Source: Deltaproteobacteria bacterium (GTDB taxonomy: Bacteria > JAUYMQ01). From it: 17,917 nucleotides of DNA. The position numbers and the translations under genes are program-made. The number at the start of each line of letters is the position of its first letter. Position 1 is the first letter of the stretch. Under the pieces are notes generated by a model. That model ran no database searches and had not been told where the DNA came from. It saw only the letters and a list, made by a program, of their open reading frames with translations. The stretch is from assembly GCA_030698575.1 (NCBI GenBank), contig JAUYMQ010000014.1:1-17917 (forward strand). Direction: 5' to 3'. Positions 9,198 through 17,766 of the stretch are shown piece by piece.

Positions 9198-9983
9198 ATG
9201 GTCCTCGGGATGATCGACAAGTACGTTGTACAGCCCGTCTACAACTTCTTCGACGAAGTGGGCAGAATCGTCCTCTTCGCGATGGAAGCGATCACGCTCC
9301 TATTCCGGCCCCCGCTCTTCTGGCGTGAAATCCTCACGGAGTCACATCACGTCGCCACCACCTGCATCATTCCCGTCGTCTGCACAGTGGCTCCCATCGG
9401 GTGCATCCTCGCGATCCAGGCGCTGAACATTCTCAGGCCCCTGGGCGTTGAAAAGCTCATGAGCTCGATGGTCGTCATCATCATGGTACGCGAGCTTTCC
9501 CCGGCCATGACGTCGATCATGATCGCGGCCCAGGCCGGGACGTCGATGGCCGCCGAGCTGGGCACGATGCGGGTCAAGGAAGAGATCGAGGCGCAGGATG
9601 TGATGGCCGTGAACCCGATCCAGTACCTCGTCATCCCGCGGTTCATCGCGCTCTTCATCATGTGCCCCATTCTTACCGTGATCGCCTTCTTCGTGGGGAT
9701 GGCCGGGAGCTACGTGATATCGGTGTACGTCGAAGGGGTGAACAAGGGCGCCTTCCTGACGGGTTTGTGGACCTACCTCGAAATGTATGACGTCGGCGGC
9801 GCCATCTTCAAATCCTGCGTCTTCGGCCTCGTTGTGGCGGTCATCAGCTGTTACAAGGGATTCTACGTGACCGGCGGCGCGGCGGGGGTAGGCCGGGCTG
9901 CGAACGATGCGGTGGTCATCTGCATCACCACTTTCCTCATCCTCAACTACTTCCTCACTTCAATCCTCTGGATCACGATGTGA
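9198..9983 (+). CDS. mlaE: MlaE/YrbE-family ABC permease, first of two
   Basis: A 261-residue integral inner-membrane permease of an MCE lipid transporter. About five or six hydrophobic segments are visible. The family signature is clear: VRELSPAMTSIMIAAQAGTS, MAAELGTMRVKEEIEAQDVM, NPIQYLVIPRFIALF and, near the C-terminus, CYKGFYVTGGAAGVGRAAND. MlaE-type permeases couple ATP hydrolysis in MlaF to phospholipid movement through the MCE ring. Start choice is uncertain: ATG 9198 (MVLGMIDKY) follows a hairpin and lacks a Shine-Dalgarno; ATG 9210 (MIDKYVVQP) is an alternative. It is the first gene of a tightly spaced operon and is followed 28 nt later by a paralogous permease, which suggests a heterodimeric membrane domain. 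Confidence 0.92.
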   Translation: MVLGMIDKYVVQPVYNFFDEVGRIVLFAMEAITLLFRPPLFWREILTESHHVATTCIIPVVCTVAPIGCILAIQALNILRPLGVEKLMSSMVVIIMVRELSPAMTSIMIAAQAGTSMAAELGTMRVKEEIEAQDVMAVNPIQYLVIPRFIALFIMCPILTVIAFFVGMAGSYVISVYVEGVNKGAFLTGLWTYLEMYDVGGAIFKSCVFGLVVAVISCYKGFYVTGGAAGVGRAANDAVVICITTFLILNYFLTSILWITM

Positions 9984-10011: not shown

Positions 10012-10806
10012 ATGGTGAGGTTCGTCGAGTTCATCGGAGCGCTTTTTGGAAAAGTGCTCAGCGAAGTAGGGGCCATCGGGCTCTTCGTCATCAAGACCCT
10101 GAGCGTGGGGATCTCCACCTTTCCCAACCTCAAGCGGTTCGGCGAAGAGTGCTACAACATCGGCATCCAGTCCCTCTTCGTGGTGTGCAGCGTCGGGGCC
10201 TTCATCGGCATGAGCACCGCCCTGGTCGGCTACGCCACTCTCAAGGACCTCGGCGCCCAGAACCTGGTCGGTATCTTTATCGGCATCGCGAGCATTCGCG
10301 AGCTCGGCCCCGCTGTGGCGGCCTTCATGGTGGCCGCGAAAGCGGGATCGGGCATGGCCGCCCACATCGCCACAATGCGCGTGAAGGAGCAGATCGACGC
10401 GATGGAGGTCCAGGCGGTCAATCCCTTCTGGTATCTCATCGTGCCACGCTTTCTCGCGATCATGGTGGTGCTGCCGGTCCTCGTCGTCTGGAACGATTTC
10501 TTCATGCTCGGGACCGGCTATATGATCGCCGTCTTCCAGCTCAAGATCAACAGCGGCGCCGTGATGGAGAATCTCCTCTCCACGGTGGCCATGGCGGACA
10601 TCTGGAAGGGCATGATCAAGGGCTGGGTTCTGGCTCTGTTCATCGTGAGCATCTGCACCTTCAAGGGATTCACCTGTGAACCCGGGGCCCTGGGCGTAGG
10701 AAAGGCGACGAACCAGGCGGTGGTCTACTGCATCGCCATTCTGATTATCATCAACTTCTTCCTGAGCCAGTGGCTCTACGGCGGCATCGGCCTGCGCGGC
10801 ATGTGA
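10012..10806 (+). CDS. mlaE: MlaE/YrbE-family ABC permease, second of two
   Basis: A 264-residue permease paralogous to the preceding gene. Matching motifs are IRELGPAVAAFMVAAKAGSG, MAAHIATMRVKEQIDAMEVQ, NPFWYLIVPRFLAIM and TFKGFTCEPGALGVGKATNQ. It differs at characteristic places: AAHIAT for AAELGT, and TFKGF for CYKGF. It is thus a diverged partner rather than a recent copy. ATG 10012 follows AAGGGG (9995-10000) at 11 nt and gives MVRFVEFIGALFGKVLSEVG, the usual amphipathic N-terminal helix; an earlier in-frame start at 9907 would overlap the first permease. The next gene starts after 27 nt. Two-permease arrangements are known from actinobacterial mce operons (yrbEA/yrbEB), whereas Gram-negative mla operons normally encode one. 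Confidence 0.93.
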   Translation: MVRFVEFIGALFGKVLSEVGAIGLFVIKTLSVGISTFPNLKRFGEECYNIGIQSLFVVCSVGAFIGMSTALVGYATLKDLGAQNLVGIFIGIASIRELGPAVAAFMVAAKAGSGMAAHIATMRVKEQIDAMEVQAVNPFWYLIVPRFLAIMVVLPVLVVWNDFFMLGTGYMIAVFQLKINSGAVMENLLSTVAMADIWKGMIKGWVLALFIVSICTFKGFTCEPGALGVGKATNQAVVYCIAILIIINFFLSQWLYGGIGLRGM

Positions 10807-10833: not shown

Positions 10834-11625
10834 TTGGCAAGCAAGGAAGAATTCCGGAAGTACGAAACGGGCGAGCCGATCGTGACGGTGAGGAATCTCT
10901 CCAAGTCCTTCGGCTCACTTCGCGTGCTGAAGGATCTGAACTGCGACATCAAGGCCGGCGAAACCACGGTATTCCTGGGGCCGAGCGGGACGGGCAAGTC
11001 GGTCTTCATCAAGCACATTGTCGGATTGCTCAAGCCGGACGAGGGTGAACTCGAGGTCATGGGGCGGAACGTGCCGACCCTGGGGGAACGGGAGCTGTAC
11101 GAACTGCGGAAGCATCTCGGCCTGGCCTTCCAGCTCGGCGCGCTCTTCGATTCGCTGAACGTCTATGACAACGTTTCGTTCCCGCTGTCGCACCACACGC
11201 GCATGCGCCAGAAGGAGATCAAGAGCCGGGTCGCCGAAGTGCTCGAGCTCGTCGGCCTGCCCGGCACGGAGAACAAGCTCACGACCGAGCTCTCGACAGG
11301 TCAGCAGAAGCGCGTGGGGCTTGCCCGGGCGCTGGCCCTGAACCCGACCATCGTTCTCTTCGACGAGCCGACGACGGGGCTCGACCCGATCCTTTGCACG
11401 ACCATCGACGAGCTGATTCTCAAGCTCAAGACGGAACTCGGCAAAACCTTCATCGTCATCAGCCATGACATCGAAGGCACCTGGAACATGGCGGATCAGG
11501 TGGGTGTGCTCTACCAGGGAACGCTTCTCAGGTACGGGCGAAACGCCGACGTCAGGCGCGACGACAACATCTTTCTGAAGCAGTTCTTCGGGCGCACGGA
11601 AGACGGCCCCATGATCGGGGTTTGA
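10834..11625 (+). CDS. mlaF: MlaF-like ABC ATPase, first of two (altered signature motif)
   Basis: A 263-residue nucleotide-binding protein energising the MCE transporter on the cytoplasmic face. Walker A is GPSGTGKS (49-56), the Q-loop is in AFQLGALFDSL, and Walker B is IVLFDEP with catalytic Glu178. The D-loop GLDP is intact and the H-loop is VISHD with His211. The signature motif reads LSTGQ (153-157) instead of LSGGQ or LSGGM. The TTG start at 10834 is supported by GAAGGAG (10821-10827) 6 nt upstream. Its partner, the next gene, has a perfect signature but lacks the H-loop His, so the defects are complementary. Overall it most resembles MlaF/Ttg2A. Confidence 0.93.
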   Translation: MASKEEFRKYETGEPIVTVRNLSKSFGSLRVLKDLNCDIKAGETTVFLGPSGTGKSVFIKHIVGLLKPDEGELEVMGRNVPTLGERELYELRKHLGLAFQLGALFDSLNVYDNVSFPLSHHTRMRQKEIKSRVAEVLELVGLPGTENKLTTELSTGQQKRVGLARALALNPTIVLFDEPTTGLDPILCTTIDELILKLKTELGKTFIVISHDIEGTWNMADQVGVLYQGTLLRYGRNADVRRDDNIFLKQFFGRTEDGPMIGV

Positions 11626-11677
11626 GCGGATTTCAGGGCGTCCCCGGCAACGCGCCGGGAGAGGGAGACGAGATCTC

Positions 11678-12613
11678 GTGGGGTTTCTGGATCAAATCGC
11701 GAAGCAGTTCCGGGGCGAATACGCCTACACGCCGGAGCTCGTGCTGAAGGAGATGCGGGAGAAGGGGATCAAGATCCGCGTCCGGGGGCTCACAAAGAGC
11801 TTTGGCGGGCTGACCGTGCTGAAGGATCTCGATCTGGATGTCTACGATGGCGAGACCCTTTGCATGCTCGGCGAGAGCGCATCGGGCAAGACCGTTTTCC
11901 TGAAGAGCTTGGCGGGGATCGAGCACCCCGATTCAGGCGAGATATACATCGATGAGCATGATGTCATGAACGCGCCGCCCCGGCAGCTATACGAGATGCG
12001 GCTCGGCCTTTCCATGCAGTTCCAGCAGGGAGCGCTCTTCGAGAGCGTCTCGGCGCTCGAAAACGTTCAGTGGCCCCTGGTGATGCACGCGACGGTCTCC
12101 CCGCAGGAGGCCGAAGATCGCGCGGCGAAGGACCTGGTTTCGGTCGGGCTCACGCCGGACATGCACTGGAAGCTTCCCTCCCTACTTTCAGGCGGGATGC
12201 AGAAGCGAGTGGCGCTCTGCCGGGCGATTGTCGAGCGAAAGGCGCTCATCTTGTTCGATGAACCGAACGCCGGACTGGACCCCATCAAGTGCGCGGCCAT
12301 CGACAACCTGCTTCTGCGTATCAAGAAGCAGTTCAAGGCGACTCTCATCATGAATACATCCGAACTCTTCACTGCTTATAACCTCTCGGATCGGATCGGC
12401 ATCATCTACCGGGGAAAGATCGTGGAGATCGGGGAACCCGGATCGATCAAGAGCAGCAAGCACCCCTATGTCGACGAGTTCACGCGCAAGTCCAAGGAAT
12501 TCCTCCCCCAGATCCTGGCCTATCAAGAGGAGCTGGCCAGCTGGGAGGGTGAAAAGGTCGATGACGGCCGGCGCGATTCGGAGCATCTGGGGAAGACGAC
12601 AGGCGGCTTCTGA
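11678..12613 (+). CDS. mlaF: MlaF-like ABC ATPase, second of two (lost H-loop histidine)
   Basis: A 311-residue ABC ATPase. An N-terminal stretch of about 32 residues precedes the domain. Walker A is GESASGKT (65-72), the Q-loop region is MQFQQGALFES, the signature is canonical LSGGM (170-174) and Walker B is LILFDEP with Glu195. The H-loop segment reads IMNTSELF where VTHDL is expected, so the switch histidine is Ser228 and the next Asp is Glu. A C-terminal tail of about 45 charged residues extends beyond the family core. GTG 11678 is used, with GAGGGAG (11661-11667) 10 nt upstream. An MCE gene follows after 13 nt. I infer that it pairs with the preceding ATPase as a heterodimer with one canonical and one degenerate ATP site. 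Confidence 0.92.
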   Translation: MGFLDQIAKQFRGEYAYTPELVLKEMREKGIKIRVRGLTKSFGGLTVLKDLDLDVYDGETLCMLGESASGKTVFLKSLAGIEHPDSGEIYIDEHDVMNAPPRQLYEMRLGLSMQFQQGALFESVSALENVQWPLVMHATVSPQEAEDRAAKDLVSVGLTPDMHWKLPSLLSGGMQKRVALCRAIVERKALILFDEPNAGLDPIKCAAIDNLLLRIKKQFKATLIMNTSELFTAYNLSDRIGIIYRGKIVEIGEPGSIKSSKHPYVDEFTRKSKEFLPQILAYQEELASWEGEKVDDGRRDSEHLGKTTGGF

Positions 12614-12626
12614 AAGGAGCTATTCG

Positions 12627-13532
12627 ATGGCGGCGACCAGCAGGGTTTACAGAACCGAGCTCGTACTCGGGATCTTCCTCATCATCTCCCTGGCCATTCT
12701 CGCTTACCTGGCCATGCAGACGGGCGCGTTCATCGTCGAGGACAGGGTGAAGCTCGACGTTGTCTTCGACGATGCCTCGGGAATCGTCACCGACTCGGCC
12801 GTCATGATCGCCGGCGTCCAGATCGGTCGAGTCGCGGGTCTCGACGTGGACCACAACCAGGCCATCGTGCACACGGAAGTGAACCGCTCGGCGAACGTCC
12901 GTGAGGACGTGGAGGCCCTCATCCGGGCGCGATCGCTCCTGGGAGAAAAGTACATCGAGCTCAAGCCGCAGTCCCGGGATGCGAAGATGGCGCCGGCCGA
13001 CTTCAAGGTCCCCTCGAGCCATACGGGGTTCTCCACGGAGATCGATCAGCTGACAACGAAAATCGAGCCGTTGATCGACAAGGCGCTGGTCATCCTGAAC
13101 AAGATCGACCCCGAGGATCCCGCAAAGGACAACCTCGTCAACAATCTGAACAGCCTCGCCGCCACCCTCTCCCAGGGACTGGACGGTAAGGGTCCGGCGC
13201 TCGGCAGCTTCATCGAGAACACCTCGAGCCTTACCGAACGGTTAGACGGGATCCTGGCGCGGAACGACACGCGCATTGACCGCGTGCTCATCAATCTCGA
13301 TTCTCTGCTCGCGGACGCAAACAACCAGAAAATCATCCTGGCGCTCAACGACCTGACCTCCACCCTGAACCCCGTGATGGAGGATATCCAGCGCCGGAAG
13401 GTGATTCCGAAGCTCAGCGGGGTCCTGACACGCCTGGACGTCATCGCAGCCCGGGCGGAGCTGATCGACGAAATGGCCATCCGCAAGTTCCTGCAGACTG
13501 AGGGAATCAAGGTGCACATTCGGGCCTACTAG
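12627..13532 (+). CDS. mlaD: MCE-domain (MlaD-like) substrate-binding protein, first of two
   Basis: A 301-residue protein anchored in the inner membrane by one N-terminal helix (about 11-30, LVLGIFLIISLAILAYLAMQ), with the rest predicted periplasmic. The MCE domain spans about 35-117 and contains VMIAGVQIGRVAGL and IRARSLLGEKYIELKP. MCE domains form hexameric rings that bind lipid. The roughly 180-residue C-terminal part, with many Leu/Ile/Asp/Asn heptad-like stretches, is probably helical and could form a tunnel or needle beyond the ring. It ends in FLQTEGIKVHIRAY, almost the same tail as the next MCE protein. ATG 12627 has AAAGGAG (12613-12619) 7 nt upstream. It is much longer than E. coli MlaD (about 180 residues). 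Confidence 0.93.
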   Translation: MAATSRVYRTELVLGIFLIISLAILAYLAMQTGAFIVEDRVKLDVVFDDASGIVTDSAVMIAGVQIGRVAGLDVDHNQAIVHTEVNRSANVREDVEALIRARSLLGEKYIELKPQSRDAKMAPADFKVPSSHTGFSTEIDQLTTKIEPLIDKALVILNKIDPEDPAKDNLVNNLNSLAATLSQGLDGKGPALGSFIENTSSLTERLDGILARNDTRIDRVLINLDSLLADANNQKIILALNDLTSTLNPVMEDIQRRKVIPKLSGVLTRLDVIAARAELIDEMAIRKFLQTEGIKVHIRAY

Positions 13533-13542
13533 CGGGAGCCCT

Positions 13543-13571
13543 ATCAAAAAAACCGCTGCGGTGGGTATAAT
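13543..13571 (+). promoter_or_regulatory. Candidate internal promoter between the two MCE genes
   Basis: A perfect TATAAT (13566-13571) lies in the 99-nt gap between the MCE genes. With 17-nt spacing the -35 position reads ATCAAA (13543-13548), a 3 of 6 match. Transcription would begin near 13578 and give the second MCE gene and the exported proteins a separate promoter. Confidence 0.4.
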
Positions 13572-13631
13572 AGCCGCGCCCTGGAGAGTGGATGGAATTC
13601 ACCTTCACGGCTGGCCGGACAGGGGGATGGG

Positions 13632-14540
13632 TTGGCAAGACCCAGGGACCAGATATGGAATCGCATGGCCGGGCTCGGGGCGATCATCGCCTTTTTGGCC
13701 TTCGCCTATATTGCCGTCACGAGCGGCTCCAAGGCCATGAAGGACGAGAAGAACGTCACCCTCTATGTGAGTGACGCGCTGGGCCTGGTCGAGAACTCGT
13801 CGGTCATGATCGCCGGTGTGGAGATCGGGAGGGTGACGACTCTCGCGGTCGCCCATGACAAGGCCAAGATCATTATCGCCCTGGATCCCACCGAGCAGAT
13901 CCCCAGACGGGTGCGCGGCGTCGTACGCGCCCGCTCGCTCCTCGGCGAGAAATTTCTCGAACTCATCCCGATGGATGCTGTGCCGGGCGGGGAGATCATG
14001 ACCGGAGGCGAGGAGATCGGCGAGGAGGACACGTCAAAGACCCTCGAACTGGATCAATTTGCCACCGACTTCGATCCCCTCATCGACCGCCTCGGGCGGT
14101 TTCTCGACAGCATCAACCCGCCCGATCCCGCCAAGCCGAACCTCATTGAGACGCTCGCTGACGCCACGGGTTCCCTGGCGGAGGGCCTCGATGGCAAGGA
14201 AGAGGCCATCGGCGATCTGGTGGTCAATCTGAACGACGCGGTAGTGCGCGCCGACGGCATCGTTGCCCGAAACAGCGAGCGGGGAGGGCGGGTCTTCGAG
14301 AACCTCGATGCCGTCCTTCTGGACGGCAAGCGAACCCAGATTGTACCTCGACTTTCAGAAGCGGCCTCCAGCCTGACCACCGTGGCCAGGGAGGTCGATA
14401 AAGACCAGACAGTGGCAAAACTCGACAAGGTGTTGGTCCGGTTGGACCCGATTCTGGCCCGGGCAGAGATGCTCGACGAAACAGCGCTCCGGAAGTTCCT
14501 CCAGGTGGAGGGCATCAAGGGGCACATAAGAGCCTGGTAA
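13632..14540 (+). CDS. mlaD: MCE-domain (MlaD-like) substrate-binding protein, second of two
   Basis: A 302-residue paralogue of the previous gene. One N-terminal transmembrane helix (about 14-30, GLGAIIAFLAFAYIAV) precedes an MCE domain at about 40-118 with VMIAGVEIGRVTTL and VRARSLLGEKFLELIP. A segment rich in Gly and Glu follows (GGEEIGEEDTSK), then a long predicted helical region. The C-terminal tail FLQVEGIKGHIRAW matches the first MCE protein. TTG 13632 is the best start, with AGGGGG (13621-13626) about 5 nt upstream; the next in-frame Met is residue 12, which would truncate the lead-in to the membrane helix. Two different MCE subunits suggest either a mixed hexamer or two stacked rings. 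Confidence 0.9.
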   Translation: MARPRDQIWNRMAGLGAIIAFLAFAYIAVTSGSKAMKDEKNVTLYVSDALGLVENSSVMIAGVEIGRVTTLAVAHDKAKIIIALDPTEQIPRRVRGVVRARSLLGEKFLELIPMDAVPGGEIMTGGEEIGEEDTSKTLELDQFATDFDPLIDRLGRFLDSINPPDPAKPNLIETLADATGSLAEGLDGKEEAIGDLVVNLNDAVVRADGIVARNSERGGRVFENLDAVLLDGKRTQIVPRLSEAASSLTTVAREVDKDQTVAKLDKVLVRLDPILARAEMLDETALRKFLQVEGIKGHIRAW

Positions 14541-14571: not shown

Positions 14572-14591
14572 GGCACAGCCTAGGTTGTGCC
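14572..14591. other. Inverted repeat before the exported-protein gene
   Basis: GGCACA (14572-14577) and TGTGCC (14586-14591) flank GCCTAGGT, which itself contains the palindrome CCTAGG. There is no T-run, so an operator or leader hairpin is more likely than a terminator. It sits in the 94-nt gap before the first exported paralogue. Confidence 0.35.
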
Positions 14592-14634
14592 CGCCAACGC
14601 GGCGCTCTCGACCCCGGAGAGAAGGAGGAAGAAG

Positions 14635-16182
14635 ATGAGTGGGAAGGTGAGCAAGTTCCTGTTCGCGTTCCTGGTGGCGGGGCTCGTACTCGTGCCCGTC
14701 GCGCGGAACTTCGCGCAGGACATGCCGGAAGAGTCAGCGGTGGATCCCACCGTGGAAGCACCTACGCAGATAGATTCAGAGACGACGGCTGCGGAGGTCG
14801 AGGAAGTCCAGCAGATTGAGGCAGAGTCCGTGGTGAAGGCGAAGGGCGGCATCGGACCCGAGAGCGGCCTGGGCGTCTTCAGCCGCCATGCGGACCCCGT
14901 GGTCCTCAAGGGCGAGCAGATCCCGAAATTCGCCGGTGCGACCGAGGACACCATCCGCGTCTTTGCCAACAAGGACGGAAGCGGCCTGAAGCCTATTCCT
15001 TACCAGATGGACGAGCGCAATCAGTGGGGCGAATTCGTCGTGATCAAGGGCAAGCGCGTCGTGGCGGATGAGGACGAGGGTGCCTTCGACGAGAACGACG
15101 AGGTCGTCTTCCTGACGCGAGACCTGGGCTCGAAGGCGGCCAAGGACAGCTGGCCGTCGGGTTTCAAGGAGGCCTACGAGGTCGAGGTCACCGATCCGCT
15201 GACCTCGGTCAAGGGCTACGCCTACGTGCTGAGCTACGCGAGCGCCAGCGCGGCGCCGGCCCCTTCGACGGATGACTACATCAGCTACGAGGAGAAGGGC
15301 CAGGGCGTGACCCACGCAATGAGCTACGAGCTGGGCTTCGTGAAGCCCGCCTCGGGTCTCGACTATGATCTTCTCACCGTCATGCCGGCAGCCGGGGGCA
15401 GCGGCAAGGACTGGTTCGACCGCCTCAAGGTGCGCGTGTTGCAGAACCTCAAGCGGTTCATGACGCTGGGAATCCCGACCCGTCTCGACCGGACCGAGAA
15501 GAACTTCCTGGTCAAGGTCTACGGTTACAAGGACGGCCCCGTGCGCGTGCTCCGGGTGATGAAGGTCAACCTTCAGCTCATCTGGAAGCTTCCCGCTCCG
15601 GGCGCCACGGTCAACTCGGTCTTCTATCCTGAGTGGATCGAGTGGCCGGTGCCGGTCAACCTGCCCTTCAAGCCCAGCTGGGCCTTCTACAACGTCGAGC
15701 TGGACGTCTCCCACGACTACGACTTCGGCGTGAACGATGGCGTGAAGGTGTACAACTCGAAGGACCAGAGGTGGGATGTCGTCGACGGCAAGATGACGCC
15801 CGAGGAGACGGCGGTCAACAAGGCTGACGTGCGGGGAAGCTACTACGGCTTCGACGCCACTGCGGCCGGCCACGGCGCGGGCTTCTACACGGTGAGGCCC
15901 CCGAAGAGCTTCTCGGCGTCCCTCATTGGGCTCTACAACGACTCGACAGAGGTCGGGGTCGAGCCCGAGTACTACGAGGGGGACGGCAACAAGAAGGACA
16001 GGGAGGAAAATATCGCGGGCGCGCTCCCCCTCGCCGGCGGCCGCTTCGTGAACTGGGACGACGTGGGGAAGGGCATCCACACGATCTTCTGGTACCACTT
16101 CTACCCGCCGTTCTATACCCTCGGGAAGGAGAAGGCCTTCCTGGACATCATCGATCATCCCATCTCCGTGACGGTCAACTGA
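14635..16182 (+). CDS. Exported protein of unknown function, paralogue 1
   Basis: A 515-residue protein that I cannot assign to a named function. Residues 1-27 look like a Sec signal peptide (FLFAFLVAGLVLVPVARNFA followed by QD). A low-complexity acidic linker of about 55 residues follows. The folded part begins near DPVVLKGEQIPKFAG and includes PIPYQMDERNQWGEFV, an acidic loop DEDEGAFDENDEVVF that could bind calcium, repeated aromatic and beta-rich stretches, FLVKVYGYKDGPVRVLRVMK, EPEYYEGDGNKK and a C-terminal DIIDHPISVTVN. I saw no cysteine. ATG 14635 is set by AAGGAGG (14622-14628) 6 nt upstream. It is strongly similar to the next gene. Location after the MCE operon suggests a periplasmic or outer-membrane partner, which is inference. 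Confidence 0.85.
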   Translation: MSGKVSKFLFAFLVAGLVLVPVARNFAQDMPEESAVDPTVEAPTQIDSETTAAEVEEVQQIEAESVVKAKGGIGPESGLGVFSRHADPVVLKGEQIPKFAGATEDTIRVFANKDGSGLKPIPYQMDERNQWGEFVVIKGKRVVADEDEGAFDENDEVVFLTRDLGSKAAKDSWPSGFKEAYEVEVTDPLTSVKGYAYVLSYASASAAPAPSTDDYISYEEKGQGVTHAMSYELGFVKPASGLDYDLLTVMPAAGGSGKDWFDRLKVRVLQNLKRFMTLGIPTRLDRTEKNFLVKVYGYKDGPVRVLRVMKVNLQLIWKLPAPGATVNSVFYPEWIEWPVPVNLPFKPSWAFYNVELDVSHDYDFGVNDGVKVYNSKDQRWDVVDGKMTPEETAVNKADVRGSYYGFDATAAGHGAGFYTVRPPKSFSASLIGLYNDSTEVGVEPEYYEGDGNKKDREENIAGALPLAGGRFVNWDDVGKGIHTIFWYHFYPPFYTLGKEKAFLDIIDHPISVTVN

Positions 16183-16296: not shown

Positions 16297-17766
16297 ATGG
16301 CACGGTTCTCACTCAGGCTCTTCCTCCCGCTACTCGTTCTCGGGCTCACGCTCATTCCCGTGGCGCGCAATCACGCCCAGGACGCCCTACCACCCGCTGA
16401 TGTGCCCGATGCGGTCGCCGTGGCTGTGGCCGACGAGGCGCCTTCCACCACGGCCGCAGCGTTTTTTTCACGACAGGCCGATCCGGTGGTCATCAAGGGC
16501 GAGCAGCTGCCCGCTTTCCTCGGCTCCACCGAGGACAAGATGCGCGTGTTCGCGAAGCGCGACGGCAAGCTCCGGCCCATTCCCTACCAGATGGACGAGC
16601 GGAACCAGTGGGGGGAGTTTGTGCTCCACCACGGCAAGCGCGTTGTTCCCGATGAGGACTCAGGCGAGTACGACGAGAACGACGAACTCGTGTTCATAAC
16701 CCGTGATCTCGGCGCCAAGGCGCCCAAGAGCGAGTGGCCGACGGGGACGAAGGAGGCTTTCGAGGTCGAGGTGACCGACCCACTGACGTCCGACAAGGCC
16801 TACGCCTACGTAATGCTGTACGAGACGGCTTCCGCGGCTCCGGCGCCGTCCACGGTGGACTACGTGACGTACGAGCAGAAGGGCGGAGGGTTGATCCGCG
16901 CGACGAACTACGAGATCGGTTGGCTCAAGTCGTCCTCGGGGCTCGATTACAACCACCTCGTCGTGACGAAGGAGGCCGGCGGCGACAATATCAATCACTT
17001 CGACAAGCTCAAGATCCGGGTGCTGCAGAACCTCCGTCGGTTCCTGACGCTGGGTCTCTCACCCCGGCTCGACCGGAGCGAGGAGAATTTCCTCGTCAAG
17101 GTCTACGGCTACCGCGACGGCCCGGTGCGCGTGCTCCGGGTCATGAAGGTCAACCTCCAGCTCGTCTGGAAACTTCCGGCGCCGGGTGCGACGGTGAACT
17201 ACGTCTTCTACCCGGAATGGATGGAGATCCCGGTTCCCATCAACCTGCCCTTCAAGCCGACCTGGGCCTTCTACGACCTCGAGCTCGACACTTCGCACGA
17301 CTACGACTTCGACCCGAAAGCCGGCGTGAAGGTCTACAGCTCGAAGACCGACCGCTGGGATGTGGTGGACGGCAAGATGAGCCCCGAGGAAACGGCGGTG
17401 AACAAGGAGGAGGTGAAGGGAACCTACGCCGGCTATGACGGCTCCGCCGCCGGCGTGGGGTCTGCGTTCTTCACCATCCGGGCGCCCAAGAGCTTCCCCG
17501 TGAAGATCCTCGGACTCTACCTGGATGACCCGGAAGACGGGCTCGAACCCGAGTATTATGAGGGCGACGGCAACAAGAAGAATCGGACAGAGTGGATCAA
17601 GGGGTCCTCTTTCCTGGGTGGATACCGCTTCATCGACTGGGAGGGTGTCAGCAAGGGGATCCACACCGTCTACTACTACCAGTTCTATCCTCCCCACTAT
17701 AAGCCGGGGGGTGAGAAAGCGTTCCTGAACATCATCGATCATCCGGTCGCGGTCAGCATCAACTAA
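16297..17766 (+). CDS. Exported protein of unknown function, paralogue 2
   Basis: A 489-residue paralogue of the preceding gene, also without a recognised function. Signal peptide: about residues 1-27 (LRLFLPLLVLGLTLIPVARN followed by HAQD). Its linker is about 20 residues shorter and is Ala/Val/Asp-rich. The mature domain repeats the same landmarks: DPVVIKGEQLPAFLG, PIPYQMDERNQWGEFV, the acidic loop DEDSGEYDENDELVF, FLVKVYGYRDGPVRVLRVMK, EPEYYEGDGNKK and NIIDHPVAVSIN. In one aligned 109-residue stretch (residues 265-373 against 291-399 of paralogue 1) 89 positions are identical by my count. ATG 16297 has AGGAG (16285-16289) 7 nt upstream. No cysteine is seen. A strong hairpin lies between the two genes, so expression may differ. 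Confidence 0.85.
   Translation: MARFSLRLFLPLLVLGLTLIPVARNHAQDALPPADVPDAVAVAVADEAPSTTAAAFFSRQADPVVIKGEQLPAFLGSTEDKMRVFAKRDGKLRPIPYQMDERNQWGEFVLHHGKRVVPDEDSGEYDENDELVFITRDLGAKAPKSEWPTGTKEAFEVEVTDPLTSDKAYAYVMLYETASAAPAPSTVDYVTYEQKGGGLIRATNYEIGWLKSSSGLDYNHLVVTKEAGGDNINHFDKLKIRVLQNLRRFLTLGLSPRLDRSEENFLVKVYGYRDGPVRVLRVMKVNLQLVWKLPAPGATVNYVFYPEWMEIPVPINLPFKPTWAFYDLELDTSHDYDFDPKAGVKVYSSKTDRWDVVDGKMSPEETAVNKEEVKGTYAGYDGSAAGVGSAFFTIRAPKSFPVKILGLYLDDPEDGLEPEYYEGDGNKKNRTEWIKGSSFLGGYRFIDWEGVSKGIHTVYYYQFYPPHYKPGGEKAFLNIIDHPVAVSIN

Follow-up and report, generated by a model that had tools for sequence, protein, structure and literature searches.

Organization of the operon

The window (the whole stretch of DNA analyzed, 17,917 nucleotides) harbors genes arranged on the plus strand in the order E1 (MlaE), E2 (MlaE), F1, F2, D1 (MCE), D2 (MCE), U1 and U2, with operon-like intergenic gaps of ∼10 to 115 bases from E1 to U2. 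The genes and the codons relevant to this work are as follows:

9198 to 9983, plus strand: E1, MlaE-type permease 1 (PF02405, E = 1.2e-67)
10012 to 10806, plus strand: E2, MlaE-type permease 2, with the ATG at 10012 as the preferred start (PF02405, E = 4.5e-65)
10834 to 11625, plus strand: ATPase F1 (a-type)
11296 to 11298, plus strand: F1 Thr155 codon ACA, third position of the ABC signature
11464 to 11466, plus strand: F1 His211 codon CAT, H-loop
11678 to 12613, plus strand: ATPase F2 (b-type)
12359 to 12361, plus strand: F2 Ser228 codon TCC, H-loop position
12627 to 13532, plus strand: D1, MCE (MlaD-type) substrate-binding protein 1, start estimated (PF02470, E = 1.5e-16; TIGR00996)
13632 to 14540, plus strand: D2, MCE (MlaD-type) substrate-binding protein 2 (PF02470, E = 1.6e-14; TIGR00996)
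14587 to 16182, plus strand: U1, probably secreted protein, paralogue of U2
16297 to 17766, plus strand: U2, probably secreted protein with a galactose-mutarotase-like beta fold predicted in its C-terminal part

From two PF02405 permeases, two PF02470 proteins, and two ATPases closest to MceG and MlaF, we infer that the operon encodes an MCE/Mla-type ABC transporter, the substrate of which would be a lipid. The core parts all come in two diverged copies (permeases E1/E2, ATPases F1/F2, and MCE proteins D1/D2). Two more MlaE-ATPase-MCE loci of this genome (L068 and L069) encode canonical ATPases and served as an internal control. D1 and D2 share a C-terminal motif (EGIKVHIRAY and EGIKGHIRAW, within 12627 to 14540) that reads RGIKARVRIW in the single MCE protein of genome G360.

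Motif residues of F1 and F2

F1 carries Walker A at 49-GPSGTGKS (K55), the signature L153-S-T155-G-Q157, Walker B D177-E178, a GLDP D-loop, and H211 at the H-loop. The equivalent elements of F2 are 65-GESASGKT (K71), L170-SGGM174, D194-E195, and GLDP, and Ser228, in the context LIMNTSELF, replaces the H-loop His. Residues and codons confirmed what the preliminary description had read from the DNA, namely, an LSTGQ signature with a retained His in F1 and an LSGGM signature with Ser in place of the H-loop His in F2. S228 aligned gap-free with the His column in both pairwise and multiple alignments to MceG and MlaF relatives, and in a model of F2 (mean pLDDT of 79) it lay where the H-loop strand (residues 222 to 227) ends, i.e., in the usual place. 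The closest solved fold to this model among those listed was MlaF (6xgz_C; Z of 30.6, rmsd of 2.1, 245 residues aligned). Since the T155 and S228 codons are each at least 2 base substitutions away from Gly and His codons, respectively, a single-base sequencing error is unlikely to explain either residue.

We collected 140 distinct MCE-type ATPases (5 b-subunits and 5 partners from adjacent pairs, the window included, and 130 others). MCE ATPases normally have the signature LSGGM (PMC7367683), which was present in 112 of the 140 proteins. LSGGQ, the form against which the preliminary description set LSTGQ of F1, is not the norm of this family. The H-loop His was kept in 133 of the 140, and also in all of 20 additional ATPases, some of them ordinary non-MCE proteins. 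The T155 and S228 pair itself is known from one genome, the sole member of its family, class, and phylum among the genomes searched. No F2 orthologue above 41% identity was found in 386 sampled genomes, and none was found in viral contigs. The plasmid matches listed were ABC ATPases 36 to 41% identical to F2, and the matches in genome contigs were only distant ABC ATPases; neither set was regarded as orthologous.

Both changes map to one composite ATP site under standard dimer geometry

Around each ATP of an ABC dimer, one subunit contributes the Walker A/B motifs, Q-loop, and H-loop, and the opposite subunit contributes the signature (PMC7756269); the D-loop likewise acts in trans across the dimer interface (PMC4242082). 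Because the Walker set of F2 meets the signature of F1 in such a dimer, S228 and T155 fall in one composite site if F1 and F2 pair with the standard ABC geometry. This geometric argument, already made in the preliminary description, is right and is supported by the recurrence in other lineages reported below. The accompanying claim of an intact second site also holds for such a dimer, with K55, E178, and H211 of F1 facing LSGGM of F2.

We thus favor, with a probability of roughly 60%, a motor in which F1 and F2 form a heterodimer on E1/E2 with one canonical and one degenerate or weakened ATP site, the latter in a latch role. F1 and F2 would most likely heterodimerize on the E1/E2 pair, and the canonical site would drive turnover. 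The weak site (K71, E195, and S228 of F2 plus LSTGQ of F1) would bind ATP and hydrolyze it slowly or not at all, probably serving as a latch that holds the ATPases engaged, with about one ATP spent per cycle. Impaired hydrolysis at the F2-side site is likely. A comparable role is documented for TM287/288, in which the NBDs stay in contact through nucleotide bound at the weak site (PMC5216877).

Two observations count against a degenerate site. Loss of the Walker B Glu from such sites is common, not universal, and Glu195 of F2 is intact. One passage in the literature calls this loss a hallmark of the degenerate site (PMC7544095). Furthermore, Thr also occupies signature position 3 in a presumably homodimeric, single-ATPase MCE operon (LSTGE in G216). 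MCE ATPases with LSTGE or VSIGM were encoded at L198 7048-7794 (G216, LSTGE), L200 6802-7548 (G156, VSIGM), and L214 (G296), and the surroundings of the G216 and G156 genes are single-ATPase operons, so signature position 3 can vary in presumed homodimers. With the catalytic Glu kept in F2 and this position tolerant, the weight of the case for asymmetry rests on the lost His. Hence, the asymmetric-heterodimer pattern proposed in the preliminary description stood in part: defects of both partners do fall in the same composite site and the pairing recurs elsewhere, but both Walker B Glu residues are present and Thr155 is not a reliable defect alone, given LSTGE in G216 and VSIGM in two genomes.

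These same data bear on a heterodimer in which both sites hydrolyze ATP, Ser228 and Thr155 being tolerated variants. Both catalytic Glu and both Walker A Lys residues are present (E195 and K71 in F2), and single-ATPase MCE operons carry LSTGE and VSIGM, as this explanation would have it. We nonetheless consider it unlikely: the seven ATPases of the collection lacking the H-loop His were encoded only in two-ATPase loci or as unlinked copies, and in two genomes (G040 and G185) the His-less subunit has lost its catalytic Glu too (Asp).

His loss recurs in other two-ATPase MCE loci

With U2 and the permeases as queries, we searched for the same arrangement and retrieved tandem-permease MCE loci, U2 leading to G360. 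Besides the window, four loci encode adjacent ATPases, in two small phyla (G040 and G185; G149 and G288). Searching the phyla of G360, G040, and G149, which have only 8, 3, and 2 genomes, respectively, added one further two-ATPase pair (G185); in 75 further genomes, no adjacent ATPase pair was seen among the matches listed. Exactly one ATPase per locus lacks the His, always with an SGG signature (5 of 5 adjacent pairs, window included), and the His-less ATPases of the four other loci keep LSGGM. In G040 and G185, one ATPase combines His-to-Asn and catalytic Glu-to-Asp changes, and its partner reads LSYGM and LSFGM, respectively. In G149 and G288, one ATPase has His replaced by Gln and the partner has a GADP D-loop. 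All four partners retain His and Glu. Since signature and D-loop are given in trans, the changes in the partners bear on the site of the His-less subunit. Counting against this interpretation, the partner signature in G149 and G288 falls among the usual forms (ISGGM is frequent), leaving the D-loop as the sole difference.

All 5 b-subunits of the adjacent pairs lacked the His versus 2 of the 130 other ATPases (Fisher P ∼6e-8, kinship ignored), and a trans-motif change (signature or D-loop) affected 5 of 5 partners versus 8 of 130 (Fisher P ∼4e-6, kinship ignored); probably two or three independent origins lie behind these counts. No His loss was found in 49 other loci showing an MlaE gene. The 2 exceptions, from G247 and G028, have no adjoining permease gene. 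In G247, from a third lineage, the only ATPase of the tandem-permease operon reads LGDGM and SLDP; on another contig lies a gene for an MCE-type ATPase whose signature is LSGGQ and whose H-loop His is replaced by Ser (L140 6128-6958; G247:C13). As the two permeases and the LGDGM ATPase of G247 group with those of G040, G185, G149, and G288, the unlinked gene is plausibly the relocated partner of the LGDGM ATPase. The unlinked MCE-type ATPase of G028 (L218 9072-9863; G028:C43) shows Walker B Glu-to-Asp and H-loop His-to-Pro changes; no altered partner was seen for it in this genome, and it may be a relocated degenerate partner or a pseudo-ATPase.

F2 could also be a pseudo-ATPase or regulatory subunit under relaxed constraint, decaying or acting as a modulator while F1 homodimers drive transport. 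Its long branch (1.7 to 1.9), a possible sign of relaxed constraint, and its extended N and C termini fit this scenario, which we judge very unlikely on several grounds. The Walker A, Q-loop, LSGGM, Walker B, and D-loop elements are all preserved in F2, whose gene is intact and in frame within the operon; the pairing of one canonical with one His-less ATPase recurs in other lineages; and a His-less subunit with its signature preserved is what a catalytic partner needs. The presence of all parts in two copies might alternatively reflect F1-F1 and F2-F2 homodimers that power two separate transporters (E1 with F1 and E2 with F2) from one operon. Of the readings weighed here, we give this one the least credence. 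Tandem E1-E2 genes occur with a single ATPase and a single MCE gene in G360, G389, G387, G091, and G043; YrbE1A/B, the analogous permease of mycobacteria, is heterodimeric (PMC10517005); and neither site of an F2 homodimer would contain the His.

Phylogeny of the ATPases and permeases

In an ATPase tree built with the motif columns masked, F1 adjoined the single ATPases of tandem-permease operons with modest support, and the a-types of G040, G185, G149, G288, and G247 formed a clade of their own (support 97/96). Permease trees placed both E1 and E2 of the window inside the tandem-permease, single-ATPase group, with the first (100/98) and second (98/81) permeases of those operons, respectively. 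Approximately unbiased (AU) tests rejected joining the window permeases with those of the other two-ATPase systems (P = 0.004 for E1 and 0.003 for E2), which suggests a separate origin of the window pair. On the ATPase trees alone, a single origin was unrejected for a-types (P = 0.27) and b-types (P = 0.53). A single origin of the His-less ATPases is thus permitted by the ATPase sequences, but the permeases reject a shared background.

This placement suggests at least two origins of the two-ATPase arrangement. In the simplest reading, the permeases were already paired when, separately in two lineages, the ATPase was duplicated and became asymmetric; transfer of the ATPase pair between lineages is also possible. 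The broader proposal that a TAP/CFTR-like asymmetric MCE motor evolved at least twice, by ATPase duplication after the permease heterodimer, in several phyla and with the degenerate ATPase sometimes unlinked, stands in our estimate at even odds.

Comparison with known transporters

MCE transporters have been studied as symmetric ATPase homodimers, and the coupling of ATP use to the direction of lipid movement in them is debated. Like MlaFEDB of E. coli and P. aeruginosa, the window encodes MlaE-fold permeases, MlaF-type ATPases (F2 with LSGGM), and MlaD-type MCE proteins; however, MlaF forms a homodimer, in which both sites are identical (PMC7367683), whereas the window has two unlike ATPases, permeases, and MCE proteins. 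The two MlaE permeases are reminiscent of the heterodimeric permease of mycobacterial Mce1 (YrbE1A/B-MceG), and MceG is the best PDB sequence match for both F1 and F2. In contrast to the window, a single MceG ATPase is shared by all Mce systems (PMC10517005), with no second, His-less ATPase described. The closest gene order, E1-E2-ATPase-MCE, is that of the tandem-permease operons of G360, G389, G387, G091, and G043, whose permeases group with those of the window; these have a single MCE gene and, like the locus of G188, one canonical ATPase.

TAP, CFTR, TM287/288, and Pdr5 have one full and one weakened ATP site. In TAP1/TAP2, CFTR, and TM287/288, as in the window, Walker/H-loop defects of one subunit and signature defects of the other meet in the same composite site, and H-loop changes have been noted for TAP and CFTR (PMC7756269). 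Those proteins differ in having exporter or channel folds rather than MCE permeases and in usually having lost the Walker B Glu that the window keeps. Judging from its motifs, the window may thus encode an MCE transporter variant that is TAP/CFTR-like in its ATP-site pattern. The open-access literature, to which our search was confined, yielded no description of an asymmetric ATPase pair in an MCE system, in agreement with the preliminary description. A naturally asymmetric MCE motor would amount to a ready-made single-site variant, in which one-by-one substitution of the Glu residues would reveal the number of ATP events needed and the permease half that these events drive. If true, this would add a separate case of the degenerate-site design found in TAP, CFTR, and Pdr5, one that can be compared across several phyla.

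The U1/U2 family

U1 and U2 are 65% identical. They belong to no Pfam or NCBIfam family and have no PDB sequence match. Homologues of this family occur in 28 of the 386 sampled genomes (own genome included). By structure comparison, the U2 model (pLDDT of 80) is similar to the galactose-mutarotase-like beta folds found in PL26 lyases and in GH38 mannosidases (Z of 16 to 17, 7 to 8% identity). In G360, which belongs to another phylum, a U-family gene lies directly upstream of the E1-E2-ATPase-MCE operon (L064 169-5278; G360:C110), an adjacency suggesting that U-family proteins act together with MCE systems of the tandem-permease type.
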